Origin: an uncultured Porphyromonadaceae bacterium
GTDB lineage: Bacteria > Bacteroidota > Bacteroidia > Bacteroidales > Muribaculaceae
Length of the DNA stretch: 8,890 nt
Assembly: GCA_947178655.1 (NCBI GenBank)
Contig: CAMWZB010000032.1
Coordinates: 1-8,890, forward strand
Direction: 5' to 3'
Under the pieces are notes generated by a model. The model ran no database searches, was not told where the DNA came from, and worked only from the letters and a program-made list of their open reading frames with translations. Positions 1 through 8,890 of the stretch are shown one piece after another (position 1 is the stretch's first letter; each line of letters begins with the position of its first letter). The translations under genes were made by a program, and so were the position numbers.

Positions 1-300
1 TATCGGGTCGAGGTAATACTGGTTGGGAGTGCCCATGAAGCGGTAAGTCACACCGTCCACTCGCAGCAGACCGTCGATGGCCTTCTCGCGTTCGCTCCAG
101 TGGCGAGTGGGACCGCCGTTGAGAGTGTCATAGTTTGACCATATCGAGAAGAACGGGTCATTGACCAGCAGAGGTACGGAGGGGAGCCTCAGATTGTTTT
201 TCTTGTAAGGGGTGAAGTCCTCGGCGCTTTGCCCTTGGGCCGGCATCACTACCGATGCAGCCAGTGCAAGGCCGGCGAAGAATCGTCCGATTTGTTTCAT
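1..300 (-). CDS. Secreted glutaminase-A-like (DUF4964/DUF4965 family) protein, N-terminal part
   Basis: The gene starts at an ATG read on the minus strand at 300-298 and stays open for 100 codons to the left edge, so only its N-terminus is visible. It begins with a signal peptide (residues 1 to about 24: MKQIGRFFAG, then a hydrophobic core ending MPAQGQ). From residue 37 comes LRLPSVPLLVNDPFFSIWS (37-55), followed by TRHW (65-68) and GLLRVDGVTYRFMG (77-90). This order, with a VPL..NDP-FSIWS block, a TRHW block and an L-VDG--YRFMG block, is the hallmark of the N-terminal domain (DUF4964) of the large Bacteroidota and fungal proteins annotated as glutaminase A, usually about 800 residues with DUF5127, DUF4965 and DUF1793 after it. 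In gut Bacteroidota these proteins are exported, often lie beside glycan-utilization genes, and their true substrate is mostly untested; 'glutaminase' is inherited from the fungal enzyme. It is transcribed divergently from the 580-3336 gene. The family call is firm, the activity is not. Confidence 0.85.
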   Translation of the reverse strand, partial: MKQIGRFFAGLALAASVVMPAQGQSAEDFTPYKKNNLRLPSVPLLVNDPFFSIWSNYDTLNGGPTRHWSEREKAIDGLLRVDGVTYRFMGTPNQYYLDPI

Positions 301-373
301 GATTGATTAGTTGATGAGGTATTTCTGTCGCAAAATTAATCATGTGTTTCCGAATACTCTGTGACCTCTCGGT

Positions 374-404
374 CAAAGATACGCAAAAGCAGGTCAATGA
401 CAGA
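374..404 (-). promoter_or_regulatory. Promoter of the glutaminase-A-like gene
   Basis: On the minus strand TATCTTTG (381-374) matches the Bacteroidota -7 consensus TAnnTTTG exactly. TCTG (404-401) sits 19 bp upstream as a three-of-four match to the -33 TTTG. Transcription would start near 367, giving a leader of about 67 nt before the ATG at 300. A small dyad, GACC-TCTC-GGTC (363-374), spans the predicted start site. No TGAACAGC-type operator half-site was seen close to this promoter on its own strand. Confidence 0.65.
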
Positions 405-436: not shown

Positions 437-475
437 TTTTGACATGATATTGTCATTTATTGAACAGCTATTTTC
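437..475 (+). promoter_or_regulatory. Candidate HTCS operator: direct repeat with 21-bp period
   Basis: Two related 18-bp half-sites lie head to tail at 437-454 and 458-475, agreeing at 12 of 18 positions (pattern TnTTGAnnnGnTATTnTC). The TGA of the first begins at 440 and that of the second at 461, exactly 21 bp or two helical turns apart. The downstream half-site carries TGAACAGC followed by TATTTTC. A matching pair with the same 21-bp spacing occurs at 8737-8775 before another exported-protein gene. Paired direct repeats just upstream of the promoter are what AraC-family activators bind, and the neighbouring HTCS ends in an AraC domain. The repeat is seen directly; its binding by that HTCS is inference. 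The first half-site also contains a dyad, TGACA-N6-TGTCA (440-455). Confidence 0.6.
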
Positions 476-505
476 GATGGCGGCATCAGATACACTTTAC
501 CTTTG
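471..505 (+). promoter_or_regulatory. Promoter of the duplicated lectin-like gene
   Basis: TACCTTTG at 498-505 is a full match to the -7 consensus TAnnTTTG. No good -33 TTTG lies at the usual 19-21 bp; the nearest is TTTTC (471-475), 22 bp away, overlapping the end of the operator half-site. A strong -7 with a poor -33 covered by an activator site suggests an activator-dependent promoter. The start site would be near 512, leaving a leader of about 68 nt. No Shine-Dalgarno sequence precedes the ATG at 580; a run of seven T lies directly before it. Confidence 0.65.
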
Positions 506-579: not shown

Positions 580-3336
580 ATGAAACAAAGAACTTTACTT
601 CTTGGCCTTGGGCTCGTTTCGGCCATGGCTATGCAGGCAGCTTCGCCCTTCCAGGGTGCGGCCGGCCCGTTCGCGTCGGGTACAGACTACTGGCTGTATC
701 AGGTGGAAAGCGGCAAATGGCTTCAGAACAACTTCGGACAGAACACCGGTGATTGGACCACACGTGCCAAACTCGGCAATTATGGTCTCGACATAGATAT
801 CACTCCTGTCGAAGACGTTGAGAACGGATATGTCTTCAATACCAAACTTACAGGTAACGGCAATATCTCGGCCGGCAATGACCGATTCTATCTTGACACC
901 AACAACAGGTCGGTATGGGGTATCATCCCTGTAACTGTCGACGGCGTGTCGAATGCATATCACATTCAGGCTCTCGAAGGTGACGGTCTTGCCGAAGGCG
1001 ACAACTACCTTCTCGGCGCTGCCGAAGGCGAGCTCTCGGACATGCCCGACGAAGGAGCCACAACATGGCAGTTCGTGACCAGGGCCGAGCGCATCGAAAA
1101 GATGGTAGCTGCCGCTGCAAACGGCACACAGTCAGCTACATGGCTTATTCCATGGAGCGACATGGGCCGCAACAACTACCGTGACCGCCAGTGGGTCAAG
1201 ACCTTCAATTCAGACGGTTCAGGCGTAGGCGCATGGAACGAAGCCGTATTCCCGTCGCGTCAGGTGATGGAGGCATGGCACCGTGCCACCAACTACCGTC
1301 ACTACGTGACCCTGACAGATATCCCCAACGGTACGTACGAATTCACCGTCACCGGCTACTACCGTGACACTGAGGTCGAAAATGCCGAACTCCAGCAGCG
1401 CATGGCCGACGGCACCGAGGTACTCCGCGCCAAGTACTTCGCAGGCGAGGCCGAAGGCACTATGATGCCTATCTCCAAGTACGGCAGGACAGCCGAAACC
1501 GCCAACTACTACTATGTAGAGCCCGCCGACATCTGGGTTCCCAACAATCTTGAGGCCGCTTCCCGCGCTTTCGTTGACGGTGACTACGTGAACGAATGGA
1601 TCCGCTGCGTCGTGACCGACGGCACACTCACCGTGGGTATTATCAAGGACGAAGCCGACCATCGCGACTGGCTCGTATACGGTGGCGTACAGCTCCGTTA
1701 TGTAAGTTCTGATGTCACCGGTGCCGACTACACCGCACTCAAGACTCAGCTTTCGACCCTAATTGACAAGGCAAAGACCCTTGCCCAGACTCCCGGTATC
1801 GCCGCAGCTGTGGCCGAAGCCGAGGAAGTTCTCGCAGGCAACAGCGCCAATGCTCTTCGTATGAAGGTTTTCGCCATGAAGGACCTCGTGCGTGAAATGA
1901 GCGGTGCTTCCGACCTCATCAACGCTTACAACGCCACCAAGGAAATCGTATCCAAGATGGGTCTCGACACAGCCAAGGCTGATGAGATGCTTGCCGCAGC
2001 CATCACCCGCAACGCTATCAACGACGCTCTCACCGAACTCCGCTACACCCGCCGCTATGCAGCAGCTGACAAGCAGGAGGACGTATTCAAGGGCAATGTT
2101 CCTGCCGAAGGCGAATTCTTCCTCTACAACGTCGGCCGCAAGCAGTTCCTCTGCGGTGGCTCCGACTGGGGCGCACACGCTGCTCTGGGCATGCCCGGCA
2201 TCGCACTGCATCTTGAGGCTGAGAACGTTGACGACCTGGCCTTCCACATCGAGACCGGTCTCTATAACGGAGCCGAACAGCACTACATAGGCTATCGTGG
2301 CTACATGGACTCGGGCAAGGCCGGAGCATGGCAGTTCGTGCCCGTTGAAGGCAAGGAAAATGTCTACAACATCGCCCAGTACGACTACAAGGATGTGCAC
2401 TGGATCTGGAATCCCTTCGCTTCGACCGACCAGGGCCGCAACGACGAGACTACAGTAAGCACCGAAGGCCACAACACCGACCTCAGCGACCCCAACGCAC
2501 AGTGGAAGCTCGTCACCCGCGCAGAGCGTGACGCACTCCTTGAGGAAGCCGGTCTTAAGAACCCCGCCGACGCTACATACTTCATCGCATCTCCCAACTT
2601 CAACCAGCGCGAGAACGCTGAAGGCGTATGGCAGCGTCAGGACTTCGGCGTATGGAGCTACGGTCAGAACTACAACGACTTCGCCGCAGAATCATGGAAC
2701 ACCGTCAGCAGCGACATGTCGCAGATCGTCGAAGGTCTTCCCGCAGGTGTGTACGCACTCACCGTGCAGGGCTTCTACCGCAACGGCTGTCACCAGACTA
2801 TCGTGGCTGAGGATGAAGAAGGCGAGAACCTCTACGGACAGCCCGACCTCGACCAGCTGCAGAATGCTCTGATATACTTCGGTGATGCCGAAGAGCTTCT
2901 CCCCAACATCGTGAGCGAAAGCGGCAAGGTGCCCGGCGAAGGCCGTGAAGCCAAGTCGATTTCGGACGAGCCCGTAGTCTACACCTATCCCTACAACGTT
3001 CCCGAGGCTACCGTATACTTCAAGAACGGTCTCTACAAGACCACTCTGGTCGTAAATCACGAAGGTGGCGACGCTACTATCGGTGTGGCCAAGGACGTTG
3101 CCGGTTCGGCTGAGGACTGGGTTGTTGTCGACAACTTCCGTCTCAAGTACTACGGCGCCGACACTACAGTCGAAGACGTTCGCGACGAAATCGCTTCGGG
3201 CGTAGAGAACATCACTGTCGCAACTCCCGAACGTCAGGCCGACAACCGCATCTTCAACCTCCAGGGTATCGAAGTACGCGACGCATCGGCTCCCGGCCTC
3301 TACATCCGCAACGGCCGCAAGTTCATCGTTCGCTGA
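580..3336 (+). CDS. Large secreted protein with two homologous lectin-like plus beta-sandwich halves; function unknown
   Basis: This 918-residue protein has a signal peptide (residues 1 to about 21, MKQRTLLLGLGLVSAMAMQA). The mature part is an internal duplication. Each half opens with a ricin-B/trefoil-like segment (FASGTDYWLYQVESGKWLQ from 31; GEFFLYNVGRKQFLCGG from 511), reaches a shared VTRAER (166-171 and 645-650), then a beta-rich module with IPNGTYEFTVTGYYR in the first half and LPAGVYALTVQGFYR in the second. Each half closes with a DW-V motif and a final strand (W364 and W847). Equivalent landmarks are about 480 residues apart. A helical, Ala/Leu/Glu-rich linker (about 374-505) joins the halves. 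The C-terminus (891-918) reads NLQGIEV, then APGLYIRNGRKFIVR, a tail common on exported Prevotella- and Muribaculaceae-type proteins. No catalytic signature is recognised, so glycan binding or adhesion is the best guess. Ile is rarely encoded by ATA here, unlike in the neighbouring HTCS, which may reflect high expression. The gene is monocistronic, bounded by its own promoter and terminator. Confidence 0.9.
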   Translation: MKQRTLLLGLGLVSAMAMQAASPFQGAAGPFASGTDYWLYQVESGKWLQNNFGQNTGDWTTRAKLGNYGLDIDITPVEDVENGYVFNTKLTGNGNISAGNDRFYLDTNNRSVWGIIPVTVDGVSNAYHIQALEGDGLAEGDNYLLGAAEGELSDMPDEGATTWQFVTRAERIEKMVAAAANGTQSATWLIPWSDMGRNNYRDRQWVKTFNSDGSGVGAWNEAVFPSRQVMEAWHRATNYRHYVTLTDIPNGTYEFTVTGYYRDTEVENAELQQRMADGTEVLRAKYFAGEAEGTMMPISKYGRTAETANYYYVEPADIWVPNNLEAASRAFVDGDYVNEWIRCVVTDGTLTVGIIKDEADHRDWLVYGGVQLRYVSSDVTGADYTALKTQLSTLIDKAKTLAQTPGIAAAVAEAEEVLAGNSANALRMKVFAMKDLVREMSGASDLINAYNATKEIVSKMGLDTAKADEMLAAAITRNAINDALTELRYTRRYAAADKQEDVFKGNVPAEGEFFLYNVGRKQFLCGGSDWGAHAALGMPGIALHLEAENVDDLAFHIETGLYNGAEQHYIGYRGYMDSGKAGAWQFVPVEGKENVYNIAQYDYKDVHWIWNPFASTDQGRNDETTVSTEGHNTDLSDPNAQWKLVTRAERDALLEEAGLKNPADATYFIASPNFNQRENAEGVWQRQDFGVWSYGQNYNDFAAESWNTVSSDMSQIVEGLPAGVYALTVQGFYRNGCHQTIVAEDEEGENLYGQPDLDQLQNALIYFGDAEELLPNIVSESGKVPGEGREAKSISDEPVVYTYPYNVPEATVYFKNGLYKTTLVVNHEGGDATIGVAKDVAGSAEDWVVVDNFRLKYYGADTTVEDVRDEIASGVENITVATPERQADNRIFNLQGIEVRDASAPGLYIRNGRKFIVR

Positions 3337-3368
3337 GACATCGCATCATAGAGACATACCATAGATCA

Positions 3369-3395
3369 GGGGCGCCCGTCGGGGTGCCCCTTTTC
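3369..3395 (+). terminator. Intrinsic terminator after the duplicated lectin-like gene
   Basis: A 9-bp stem (3369-3377 with 3382-3390, one G-T wobble) closes a GTCG loop and is followed by TTTTCTT. It begins 32 bp after the stop codon. It separates this gene from the HTCS promoter, so the two genes are probably transcribed independently. Confidence 0.85.
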
Positions 3396-3440
3396 TTCCC
3401 CCTTTTCTGTTTTGACAAGACGAAAAAACTGTTCTCTAAA

Positions 3441-3472
3441 TTTGCATAACTCACCCATAATTAGTAACTTTA
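3441..3472 (+). promoter_or_regulatory. Promoter of the HTCS gene
   Basis: TTTG (3441-3444) is followed after 20 bp by TAACTTTA (3465-3472), seven of eight to the Bacteroidota -7 box when the invariant positions are compared with TAnnTTTG. The start site would be near 3479, about 24 nt before the ATG at 3503. An alternative is TAAATTTG (3437-3444), a full -7 match, with TTTG at 3411-3414 at a long 22-bp spacing. CTGTTC (3429-3434), the reverse complement of the GAACAG core of the operator half-sites, lies just upstream and could be an autoregulatory site. Confidence 0.55.
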
Positions 3473-3502
3473 CGCACACAATCATACTTCAAGTCTGATG
3501 CT

Positions 3503-7490: not shown

Positions 7491-8513
7491 TCAGGGCCTT
7501 CCGAATTCGGGAAGGCCTTTTTCATTCCATTTGATTTCCTTCAGGGCCACCACCTTGCGCATCCAGTTGTTGTCGTAGTACTTCATCTGGTAGAAGAGCC
7601 AGTCGCGTTTGTCCTTGGGGCTGCGGATGTATGAGATGTTCGACGCTCCGAAGTAGTGAGCGCTGTCGGCAGCAAGGAACTGGGGCTCAGACATTTTTGT
7701 CCACGATTTCGGGTTCAGCAGGTCGCTTCCGTAAGGCGCGTGGAGCATACCCACGGTAGAGTAGACCGTCCATATTCCGCTGGCCGAGTAGCATACCACG
7801 ATGTTTCGGTTGTCAGGCGATATCATCACCTGCGGGTTCTCGTTCACATAGATAGGGTAGGCCGATCTCGTGCCGTCGGGGTCAATCCACTGACGTTCCC
7901 ATTCATATATAGGTTCGGACAGCTTGACACGTTCGGATGCGAGAGTCCACGGATTTGCCATCCGTGCTATGAATATGCACTGTGTCTCGGCCTCTATCCT
8001 GCGCTTCTCCCAGCCCGACCAAAGCATGTACAGCTCGCCGTCGCGCTCGAAGACGGTCGGGTGTATCGCCCAGTTCCAGTCGCTGGTGGTGATGATAGGA
8101 CCGTGAGCGATCCATTCGCCTTCGCGCGGATCGTCGGACGCATTCTCGAAGGCATATAGCTGATGGTAGTCGGTGTTGCCGTTCGTGTCCGCCTCGAAGT
8201 ACATATACCACTTCCCGTCTATACGGTGAAGCTCAGGCGAATACATGTTGTGCAGACCCTTGTCGGTCAGGGTGAAGACGACGCCTCCTGACGTGTCGGA
8301 GCCGAAGCCATTGATGTCGGTGGCATGATGGATTCGGGCCGTGTCGACTGCTTCGGTCTGCGTCACCAGATAGAAATTGCCGTCATATTCGGCCACGGCA
8401 GGATAAGCCTCGTGTTTAAGTATAATATGGCCTGCGGTCTCGGCCTCTTCGGTCGAGCAGGAGGCGGCGACTATGAGCAAGGAGAATAATATGGCAAACT
8501 TTAATCTATGCAT
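7491..8513 (-). CDS. GH43-fold lipoprotein (GH43_26-like) with substituted catalytic residues
   Basis: This gene encodes 340 residues. The ATG at 8513 is chosen because it starts directly with a lipoprotein signal (MHRLKFAILFSLLIVAASC, lipobox Cys19); the reading frame continues 70 codons upstream, but only by reading through the promoter repeats. Acidic residues soon after the cysteine (STEEAE) resemble the Bacteroidota signal for surface display. The fold is read from the blocks YDGNFYLVT (43-51), YSPELHRIDGKWYMYFEAD (91-109), HPTVFERDGELYMLWSG (151-167), MANPW (185-189), NENPQVM (224-230), the CYSAS motif, and LLNPKSWTKMSEPQF with a final LPEFG. This matches exo-1,5-alpha-L-arabinofuranosidase-type GH43 (subfamily 26-like). 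In active relatives the first block contains ADP with the catalytic base Asp; here it is AYP (Tyr37). The pKa-modulating Asp of the third block is His151. The probable acid, Glu225, is kept. It may therefore be a binding protein or use altered chemistry. It is convergent with the HTCS and driven by its own tandem promoters. Confidence 0.88.
   Translation of the reverse strand: MHRLKFAILFSLLIVAASCSTEEAETAGHIILKHEAYPAVAEYDGNFYLVTQTEAVDTARIHHATDINGFGSDTSGGVVFTLTDKGLHNMYSPELHRIDGKWYMYFEADTNGNTDYHQLYAFENASDDPREGEWIAHGPIITTSDWNWAIHPTVFERDGELYMLWSGWEKRRIEAETQCIFIARMANPWTLASERVKLSEPIYEWERQWIDPDGTRSAYPIYVNENPQVMISPDNRNIVVCYSASGIWTVYSTVGMLHAPYGSDLLNPKSWTKMSEPQFLAADSAHYFGASNISYIRSPKDKRDWLFYQMKYYDNNWMRKVVALKEIKWNEKGLPEFGRP
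7495..7522 (+). terminator. Intrinsic terminator of the HTCS gene, inside the end of the convergent GH43-like gene
   Basis: GGCCTTCC (7495-7502) pairs perfectly with GGAAGGCC (7510-7517) across a 7-nt loop, followed by TTTTT (7518-7522). The polarity fits the plus-strand HTCS, whose stop is 51 bp upstream. The hairpin DNA also encodes the last residues of the minus-strand GH43-like protein (ending PEFGRP), so the two convergent transcripts overlap. On the minus strand no T-run follows the stem, so it does not look like a terminator for the GH43-like gene. Confidence 0.8.
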
Positions 8514-8533: not shown

Positions 8534-8565
8534 CAAAGATACGAATAAGTCGAGCCAAATCCAAA
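8534..8565 (-). promoter_or_regulatory. Proximal promoter of the GH43-like gene
   Basis: On the minus strand TTTG (8565-8562) precedes TATCTTTG (8541-8534) by 20 bp, an ideal Bacteroidota promoter. The -33 box lies inside the palindrome at 8556-8579, so a dimeric regulator bound there would compete with or contact RNA polymerase. The start site would be near 8527, leaving an unusually short leader of about 14 nt before the ATG at 8513. Confidence 0.75.
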
Positions 8566-8581
8566 TTCATTTGGATTTGCG
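8534..8581 (-). repeat. 48-bp promoter/palindrome repeat, gene-proximal copy
   Basis: This is identical over 48 bp to 8606-8653, with a start-to-start period of 72 bp and 24 bp of unique sequence between the copies. It holds a 24-bp inverted repeat (8556-8566 and 8569-8579, arms CAAATCCAAAT, 2-bp spacer) and a full promoter facing the GH43-like gene. Identity ends exactly at both edges. Confidence 0.95.
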
Positions 8582-8605: not shown

Positions 8606-8637
8606 CAAAGATACGAATAAGTCGAGCCAAATCCAAA
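8606..8637 (-). promoter_or_regulatory. Distal promoter of the GH43-like gene
   Basis: The same arrangement as the proximal promoter: TTTG (8637-8634), 20 bp, TATCTTTG (8613-8606), again with the -33 box inside a palindrome. The start site would be near 8599, giving a leader of about 86 nt. Confidence 0.65.
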
Positions 8638-8653
8638 TTCATTTGGATTTGCG
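8606..8653 (-). repeat. 48-bp promoter/palindrome repeat, distal copy
   Basis: This is the second identical copy of the module at 8534-8581, with its palindrome at 8628-8638 and 8641-8651. A transcript begun here would carry the whole proximal copy in its leader, where the palindrome could fold into an 11-bp hairpin. Confidence 0.95.
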
Positions 8654-8697: not shown

Positions 8698-8727
8698 ATC
8701 AGTGACGCTTCCGTGTAAATCACTGAT
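8698..8727. repeat. Inverted repeat ATCAGTGA-N14-TCACTGAT
   Basis: Two perfect 8-bp arms (8698-8705 and 8720-8727) face each other across 14 bp. It lies between the distal GH43-like promoter and the direct-repeat operator of the right-edge gene. No T-run follows on either strand, so it is not an obvious terminator. The centre-to-centre distance of about two helical turns would suit a dimeric DNA-binding protein, which is inference. Confidence 0.55.
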
Positions 8728-8736
8728 ACAGGCTGC

Positions 8737-8775
8737 CCATGACCGGAATTTTATCATATTTGAACAGCCTTTTTC
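8737..8775 (+). promoter_or_regulatory. Candidate HTCS operator before the right-edge gene
   Basis: TTTGAACAGC followed by CTTTTTC (8759-8775) matches the downstream half-site at 460-475. A weaker half-site begins with TGACC (8740-8744), its TGA exactly 21 bp before the TGA at 8761, the same spacing as at 440 and 461. TGAACAGC starts 38 bp before the -7 box here and 37 bp before it at the other promoter. Matching sequence, spacing and distance make chance unlikely for the strong half-site; the weak one (8 of 18 positions shared with 437-454) is less certain. Confidence 0.55.
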
Positions 8776-8806
8776 ATCATCGGACGCCGCTTTTTTCGTA
8801 ATTTCG
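8771..8806 (+). promoter_or_regulatory. Promoter of the right-edge gene
   Basis: TAATTTCG (8799-8806) matches TAnnTTTG except for one C. TTTTC (8771-8775), 23 bp upstream, takes the place of a -33 box, just as at the 498-505 promoter. The start site would be near 8813. The sequence right after the -7 box (GCAACAGAAAAAC) resembles that at the other promoter (GCAACTGAAAAAA). Confidence 0.5.
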
Positions 8807-8857: not shown

Positions 8858-8890
8858 ATGAAGAAACTGGTACAATCCGCAGTCCTCTGC
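8858..8890 (+). CDS. Start of a probably exported protein, cut by the window edge
   Basis: An ATG at 8858 opens an 11-codon stretch, MKKLVQSAVLC, to the end of the window. The Lys pair followed by a hydrophobic run looks like the beginning of a signal peptide or lipoprotein signal. A promoter and operator similar to those of the 580-3336 gene stand about 50 to 120 bp upstream, and an A-rich stretch (GAAAAAACG) precedes the start. Too little is visible to name the protein; the shared operator suggests co-regulation with the duplicated lectin-like gene. Confidence 0.6.
   Translation, partial: MKKLVQSAVLC

Follow-up and report, generated by a model that had tools for sequence, protein, structure and literature searches.

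Matched 21-bp direct repeats at two promoters of a Porphyromonadaceae polysaccharide utilisation locus: probable operators of the HTCS encoded between them

HTCSs form a major class of glycan-use switches in gut Bacteroidota, many of them with binding sites still to be defined. At the araI1-araI2 site of AraC, two AraC-type domains occupy direct half-sites 21 bp apart, with the proximal half lying by the core promoter; the putative operators described here share this tandem layout, but their presumed DNA-binding domain belongs to a membrane protein with a phosphorelay, and a Bacteroidales -7 box marks the promoter. The closest described systems are the HTCS operators of B. thetaiotaomicron (HTCS_Ara, HTCS_Hep, HTCS_Man, HTCS_Rgu and others), for which the text of Ravcheev et al. 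(2013; PMC3878776) reports predicted motifs for 16 of 36 HTCSs as direct repeats of two half-sites at a mean spacing of 21 bp, leaving 20 of the 36 without a predicted motif, and the architecture found here was therefore to be expected. According to the same text, those operators resemble ours in standing 5' of SusC/D and glycosidase operons, in being common to orthologous HTCSs and in sometimes including an unlinked target operon, whereas ours belong to another HTCS and another lineage and have a half-site word of their own. SusR-type operators are likewise described there as direct repeats at PUL promoters, but SusR is a regulator of another family and its repeat centres are 67 or 77 bp apart, as against the 21 bp found here. 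An initial sequence-only reading of this DNA had called HTCSs a class with few defined sites, which is right in that many still have no motif but overlooks the 16 of 36 predicted in the text of PMC3878776. We measured a fixed distance to the -7 box for the present operator family; the text of PMC3878776 (logos and supplements lying outside the comparison) gives none, nor was a statement of one found in the mostly open-access text of the literature searched, including PMC6874557 and PMC12125979. The site type is thus already known, the regulon is new relative to the literature searched, and the operators are a well-supported addition to the known type.

The window, meaning the whole 8,890-nucleotide stretch analysed here (GenBank assembly GCA_947178655.1, contig CAMWZB010000032.1), carries, in order from its left end, a DUF4964 gene start, the P918 gene, the HTCS gene, a GH43 gene and a second DUF4964-type start (Table 1). 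Pfam resolved the HTCS into a Reg_prop sensor, Y_Y_Y, HisKA, HATPase_c, Response_reg and an AraC-type HTH_18 domain (residues 1236-1312), the last of which had been predicted for the regulator between the two sites, whilst P918 matched no Pfam family at E 0.001. The HTCS sequence also contains the SHIP receiver motif, which the text of PMC11253607 links, for most HTCSs, to a block on DNA binding that phosphorylation lifts. In the closest relative, Porphyromonadaceae bacterium UBA7048 (genome G001; contig DLAL01000085.1, locus L001; 84% identity to the window over 8.5 kb), a TIG-domain protein and SusC are encoded behind the second GtaA-type gene, and SusD in the adjoining stretch L080, which makes the window part of a polysaccharide utilisation locus (PUL). 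Four features that mark an HTCS operator are found in this setting, namely a direct repeat of two half-sites, about 21 bp between them, an adjoining regulator whose single chain unites sensor, kinase, receiver and AraC-type HTH, and conservation 5' of orthologous PUL operons in genomes with the HTCS.

Table 1. Positions of genes, putative operators and -7 boxes in the window.
Feature	Position	Strand	Remarks
DUF4964 gene start (GtaA-type enzyme), cut by window edge	1..300	-	Pfam
Weak third operator candidate: TGAC 396, TGAC 375, -7 box TAATTTTG 338-331 at +37	331..396	-	Faces leftmost gene
Putative operator 1, direct repeat: distal half 440-454 (TGAC 440-443), proximal half 461-475 (TGAACAGC 461-468, TTTTC 471-475)	440..475	+	5' of P918; kept in L001 at 3945
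-7 box TACCTTTG	498..505	+	+37 from TGAACAGC start; +37 fixed in homologous loci
P918, 918-aa protein; target gene of putative operator 1	580..3336	+	Homologues with same repeat 5' in many related loci
HTCS regulator, 1313 aa	3503..7444	+	Pfam
GH43-family glycosidase	7491..8513	-	Pfam
Putative operator 2: distal half 8740-8754 (TGAC 8740-8743), proximal half 8761-8775 (TGAACAGC 8761-8768, TTTTC 8771-8775)	8740..8775	+	Second GtaA-type gene and operon behind; L001 12104
-7 box TAATTTCG	8799..8806	+	+38 from TGAACAGC start (37 in L001)
Second DUF4964/GtaA-type gene start, cut by window edge	8860..8890	+	Sequence; L001 comparison

The initial reading had pointed to TGAC and TGAACAGC half-sites whose TGA starts lie 21 bp apart at both promoters, to a strong half-site of the form TGAACAGC-N2-TTTTC, and to its position 37 and 38 bp before the -7 boxes, and all three statements are exact. 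At lag 21 the distal and proximal halves are identical at 10 of 15 positions in site 1 and 9 of 15 in site 2, so each is a true direct repeat. TGAC-N17-TGAACAGC occurs in the window at these two places only; with 15-19 N allowed on both strands there were 2 matches against 0.01 expected, and none of 200 shuffles yielded two. The reported likeness of the first transcribed bases also holds (GCAAC-N-GAAAAA at each -7 box, the leading G being the last base of the box), as does the poverty of the -33 elements: in the wider set, no position between 28 and 7 bp ahead of the -7 box had TTTG in more than 6 of 47 sites. The box proposed for scanning, TAnnTTTG, describes the first -7 box and misses the second, which ends in TTCG. 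The weak TGAC/TGAC pair on the minus strand (396-361) has 6 of 15 matching positions and a matrix score of 6.2, compared with 42.1 and 46.5 for the main sites; it is conserved in L001 at 3901, and stronger sites stand 5' of the leftmost gene's orthologue in eight loci (L083, L106, L109, L113-L115, L117 and L118).

L001 was the only close match among 11 loci returned by a search of genome contigs, the other ten (27-30% identity, through kinase and receiver parts) being left unused. Both strong sites are conserved in it with the 21-bp period kept. The HTCS frame of L001 is broken into two overlapping frames (7001-9811 and 9700-10944), either by an assembly error in this MAG or as a decayed gene, while the operators are intact, a combination that we count against the HTCS-operator reading. 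A motif common throughout the genome and away from promoters would have spoken against the same reading; in the relative's 2.7-Mb genome (G001), which was scanned in place of the window's own, TGA-N18-TGAACAGC was rare, occurring at seven places. Three of these are inside long reading frames (L085, L033, L013); of the four outside, three are regulon promoters, two orthologous to those in the window and one 5' of a GH127 gene, and the fourth (L022) is at a gene junction where the TGA is the stop codon of a 106-aa frame and the other end falls within the start of a 337-aa frame. The GH127-promoter copy is on a separate contig, and an opposite-strand 116-aa frame at that place was taken as spurious. 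In the more distant relative G010 the GH127 orthologue lies within the HTCS cluster, tying GH127 independently to the HTCS system, and one of the three TGA-N18-TGAACAGC places in this genome is intergenic and in the HTCS/GH127 cluster. An off-register control in G001 (22 instead of 21) gave 0 exact and 8 one-mismatch matches, versus 19 for the reversed control; a scan allowing three mismatches was too loose (3626 matches), and the exact search was used instead. A further suspected site in L001, 5' of the TIG/SusC operon (TGAACA at 14802), had no box at +37, fell outside the top four by matrix and was dropped.

To extend the comparison, the sensor part of the HTCS was searched against 397 genomes of the family, yielding 15 genomes at E <= 1e-100, and neighbourhoods were fetched for the 13 beyond G001 and G010. 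The sensor was chosen as bait because P918 matched 21 of 99 genomes with long matches only in G001 and G010, the others being partial and many C-terminal. All 14 other HTCS-homologue loci examined carry the 21-bp direct repeat (one with a changed base), bearing out the expectation that it would be conserved in relatives that keep the HTCS, and the genes behind are of the same kinds (P918, GtaA-type paralogues and the SusC operon). Across the window and 19 loci, the TGAM-to-TGAAYA spacing gave 37 matches at 21 bp against 0-11 at every other spacing from 8 to 44, and the TWnnTTTG box gave 31 matches at offset 37 against 1 at all other offsets from 20 to 59. All 34 sites in homologous loci stand 5' of a same-strand PUL gene, of P918 type, left or right GtaA type, the TIG/SusC operon or GH127; for at least four of them (L116, L117 and two in L118) the longest called frame begins at or before the operator, and the true gene start is presumably further in. 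A leave-one-locus-out matrix of the 36-bp site (>=16 bits, top six matches per strand, -7 box outside the matrix) found 36 matches in 15 sequences, 36 of 36 with a -7 box at 37 or 38, as measured with training sites preselected for a -7 box at 37 and with loci that are not independent, some being close kin (for example L114, L115 and L117). With duplicates and N-containing sites removed, 48 distinct sites gave the profile TGAMCnGATWTT...TnTT-TGAACAGnTATTTnC, followed by 22 weakly conserved bases (0.05-0.57 bits each) and TAnnTTTG. The T-run conserved in the proximal half is 26-28 bp before the -7 box, which we take to be about where a -33 element would be expected. The two halves of a promoter did not covary, their likeness over positions 3-14 being 5.90 within and 5.83 between promoters (sd 0.16), which we likewise set against the operator reading.

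Across the 397 genomes, the composite pattern, in which the 21-bp repeat is joined by a -7 box at 37, occurred at 89 places in 58 genomes, and the reversed pattern at 10 (hand count). Of the 15 HTCS-positive genomes, 14 had the composite pattern, with 39 of the 89 places, as did 44 of the 382 others (Fisher p 6e-12); in the fifteenth HTCS-positive genome, G183, a single base of the site is changed (L112). With three loci left out, none of 13 first-hit sites from HTCS-positive genomes fell inside a frame of at least 150 aa, compared with 7 of 17 from the others, and two other word families account for 7 of the 10 intergenic first-hit sites in HTCS-negative genomes. These families, TGAMACAAATG...TGAACAA and TGAACAAAATTA...TGAACA, place other words in the same 21/37 geometry at seven sites, all outside long frames (G131:C1:84197, G182:C42:68084, G150:C63:5611 and G219:C12:43976; G154:C72:3814, G170:C111:4707 and G135:C92:1388), the first four being within about 5 kb of another HTCS.

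Additional matches were annotated in 12 regions from nine genomes, which include six of the seven such regions from HTCS-positive genomes; the seventh (G130:C15), left out, has a site that matches coding hits in G112 and G166. Reference PUL orthologues were found in 11 of the 12 regions, and 15 of 17 sites are directly 5' of one. In the twelfth region (L159), the site precedes a BNR/CBM9 and a GH31 gene that each show 41% identity to the corresponding member of an adjacent gene pair behind SusD in G001, whilst a second site in L161 precedes a 392-aa gene with no reference-PUL match and tells against the operator reading. Among the HTCS-negative genomes with the pattern, four of 44 (G206, G252, G149 and G245) were annotated around the site. 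Three of them, G206, G149 and G245, have a shortened HTCS within about 5 kb (L164, L166 and L167) that had been missed by the sensor search, in which the two best candidates per genome were scored at 1e-100. These shortened proteins are encoded near the same PUL genes, with the operators kept: that of G206 (L164 16221-17972, 583 aa) comprises kinase, receiver and AraC domains without a propeller sensor and begins 243 bp behind the previous gene, that of G245 (L167 159-1892, 577 aa) has the same make-up but is less certain, being at a contig start, and that of G149 (L166 14933-18073) has 1046 aa. They might be constitutive or partner-dependent. In G252 the sites and target genes are present but a clear HTCS orthologue was not found, which again counts against the operator reading. 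The remaining pattern-bearing HTCS-negative genomes are, partly as a matter of judgement, put down to chance or to other HTCSs.

The DNA-binding domains give a compatible picture. HTH domains of 17 other motif-bearing HTCSs are on average 62% identical to that of the window (55-71%), versus a mean of 37% and a maximum of 53% for 32 other HTCS HTH domains, and the 18 motif-bearing domains share residues that are rare in the 32, including K1264, A1297 and K1303. This likeness fits a motif that belongs to the DNA-binding domain of the window's HTCS, without amounting to proof.

We consider it highly probable, on the strength of sequence comparison, that the HTCS whose gene lies between the two repeats uses them as operators, at which tandem AraC-type domains would activate transcription. 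The proposal of an AraC-type activator made in the initial reading gains support from the rarity of the motif in the relative's genome and from its conservation with the HTCS, and it is from these that we infer binding. In the proposed mechanism, the HTCS would sense its glycan fragment and become phosphorylated, whereupon two AraC-type domains would occupy one DNA face in tandem and contact one half-site each (distal TGAMCnGATWTT, proximal TGAACAGnTATTTnC), 21 bp corresponding to two helical turns. The proximal half-site, lying a constant 37 bp ahead of the TAnnTTTG box, would stand in for the missing -33 element, and the HTCS would thereby recruit RNA polymerase to promoters that are weak alone. 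The predicted regulon comprises P918, the two GtaA-type paralogues and the SusC/SusD operon, to which relatives would add unlinked GH127 and GH31/BNR operons; the GH43 and GH127 genes suggest that the substrate is perhaps a glycan containing arabinofuranose.

The main competing explanation assigns the repeats to another transcription factor, encoded elsewhere, and makes the HTCS no more than a neighbour. Since 44 of the 382 genomes without an HTCS call have the composite pattern and G252 yielded no clear HTCS orthologue, this explanation has something to draw on, but we judge it improbable: the HTCS is the only regulator among the four genes scanned in the window, pattern and HTCS co-occur strongly across genomes, three of the genomes first scored negative proved to have a shortened HTCS near the site, and the 21-bp tandem architecture is that of HTCS sites in the text of PMC3878776.

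A shared ancestral or duplicated promoter, without operator function, might account for the resemblance, given the paralogy of the two GtaA-type proteins (left and right, with 49% identity in L001) and the similar first transcribed bases; we hold this to be very unlikely, because operator 1 faces P918, which has no match to GtaA-type proteins, and the left paralogue is on the other strand. The same motif moreover precedes the GH127 and BNR/GH31 genes, and the repeat and its +37 offset persist at 30-41% sensor identity over intervening bases of 0.05-0.57 bits, a position-specific conservation that largely refutes common descent of the promoters as the cause. Chance resemblance between two AT-rich promoter regions, conceivable in that short motifs recur and TGAACAGC is 8 bp long, has a negligible probability in our estimation. 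It is contradicted by the 0.01 matches expected in the window and by the 89 places against 10 for the hand-counted reversed pattern, and it is refuted by the conservation in relatives with a sharp spacing peak. The reading of the repeats as operators of the adjoining HTCS accordingly remains the one we prefer, and it supplies an operator and a regulon for an HTCS subfamily in 15 of the 397 sampled genomes, plus the three with shortened HTCSs recognised later.

A motif-blind test addressed other HTCS promoters of the family: 15-mer repeats (>=9/15) were counted per lag and offset 5' of non-coding TAnnTTTG boxes. At 20 other HTCS loci, the highest counts (10, where non-zero cells averaged 2.1) fell at lag 21 and offsets 37-44, whilst a summed-match statistic separated poorly (518 at lag 21, offset 38, versus 512 at lag 22, offset 27). 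The genomes of these loci had been chosen for a composite match, so the test was repeated on 33 HTCS loci (212 boxes) of 11 genomes without a match to the composite TGAAYA pattern. Here the top cell was lag 21, offset 38 (16; mean 2.4, sd 1.9), and by lag there were 24 boxes at 21 versus 1-11 at lags 12-20 and 22-32. Two scrambled anchor boxes gave no comparable peak: the highest cell counts were 4 for the one with 86 anchors (lag 21 at offsets 45 and 56 being among these cells) and 6 for the one with 123 (at lags 13 and 24). The signal comes from a minority of boxes and from canonical boxes only, a few loci look like orthologue pairs, and the offset of the repeat start is defined to within a few bases; the half-site words vary between loci.

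These counts suggest that the 21/37 geometry is general among HTCS promoters of the family. We lean, with some reserve, towards one rigid grammar that accepts any half-site word, in which a half-site is followed 21 bp on by a second, proximal one that takes over from the -33 element, and TAnnTTTG begins about 37 bp after the proximal half-site starts. If this is true, operators and hence regulons would be readable without a motif, as 15-mer repeats at lag 21 in register with a -7 box. Lag 21 together with a -7 box at about +37 could thus serve to predict operators of HTCSs for which no motif is known, and activation at promoters that have no -33 element becomes directly testable.

Several smaller observations concern the genes and spacers of the locus. 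The left GtaA-type protein of L001 (2-3805) has DUF4964/DUF5127/GtaA domains followed by GH2 domains, a fusion of which we know no description. P918 belongs to a large family (P918/P939), with no Pfam match or a weak, sub-threshold one, that accompanies the HTCS in many loci; homologues are found in L083, L106, L108, L109, L111, L113-L118, L156, L160, L162, L164 and L166. It is absent from the fetched stretches L107, L110 and L112, the genomes of L107 and L110 having it elsewhere (L160 and L156, respectively). The HTCS gene sits 3' of a terminator-like hairpin (3368-3391) in the intergenic stretch 3337-3502, which holds no copy of the operator repeat, and for both reasons the HTCS may not be self-controlled. 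A promoter-like pair, TTTG...TAAATTTG (3411, 3437), precedes the gene in the window and is not conserved in L001. Between GH43 and a weak minus-strand repeat at 8718 are two identical 48-nt copies (8534-8581 and 8606-8653, 72 bp apart), both containing the palindrome CAAATCCAAATTCATTTGGATTTG and, on the minus strand, a TATCTTTG box. The matching stretch of L001 (12003-12060) is without them, which may point to an insertion or duplication at the GH43 promoter.
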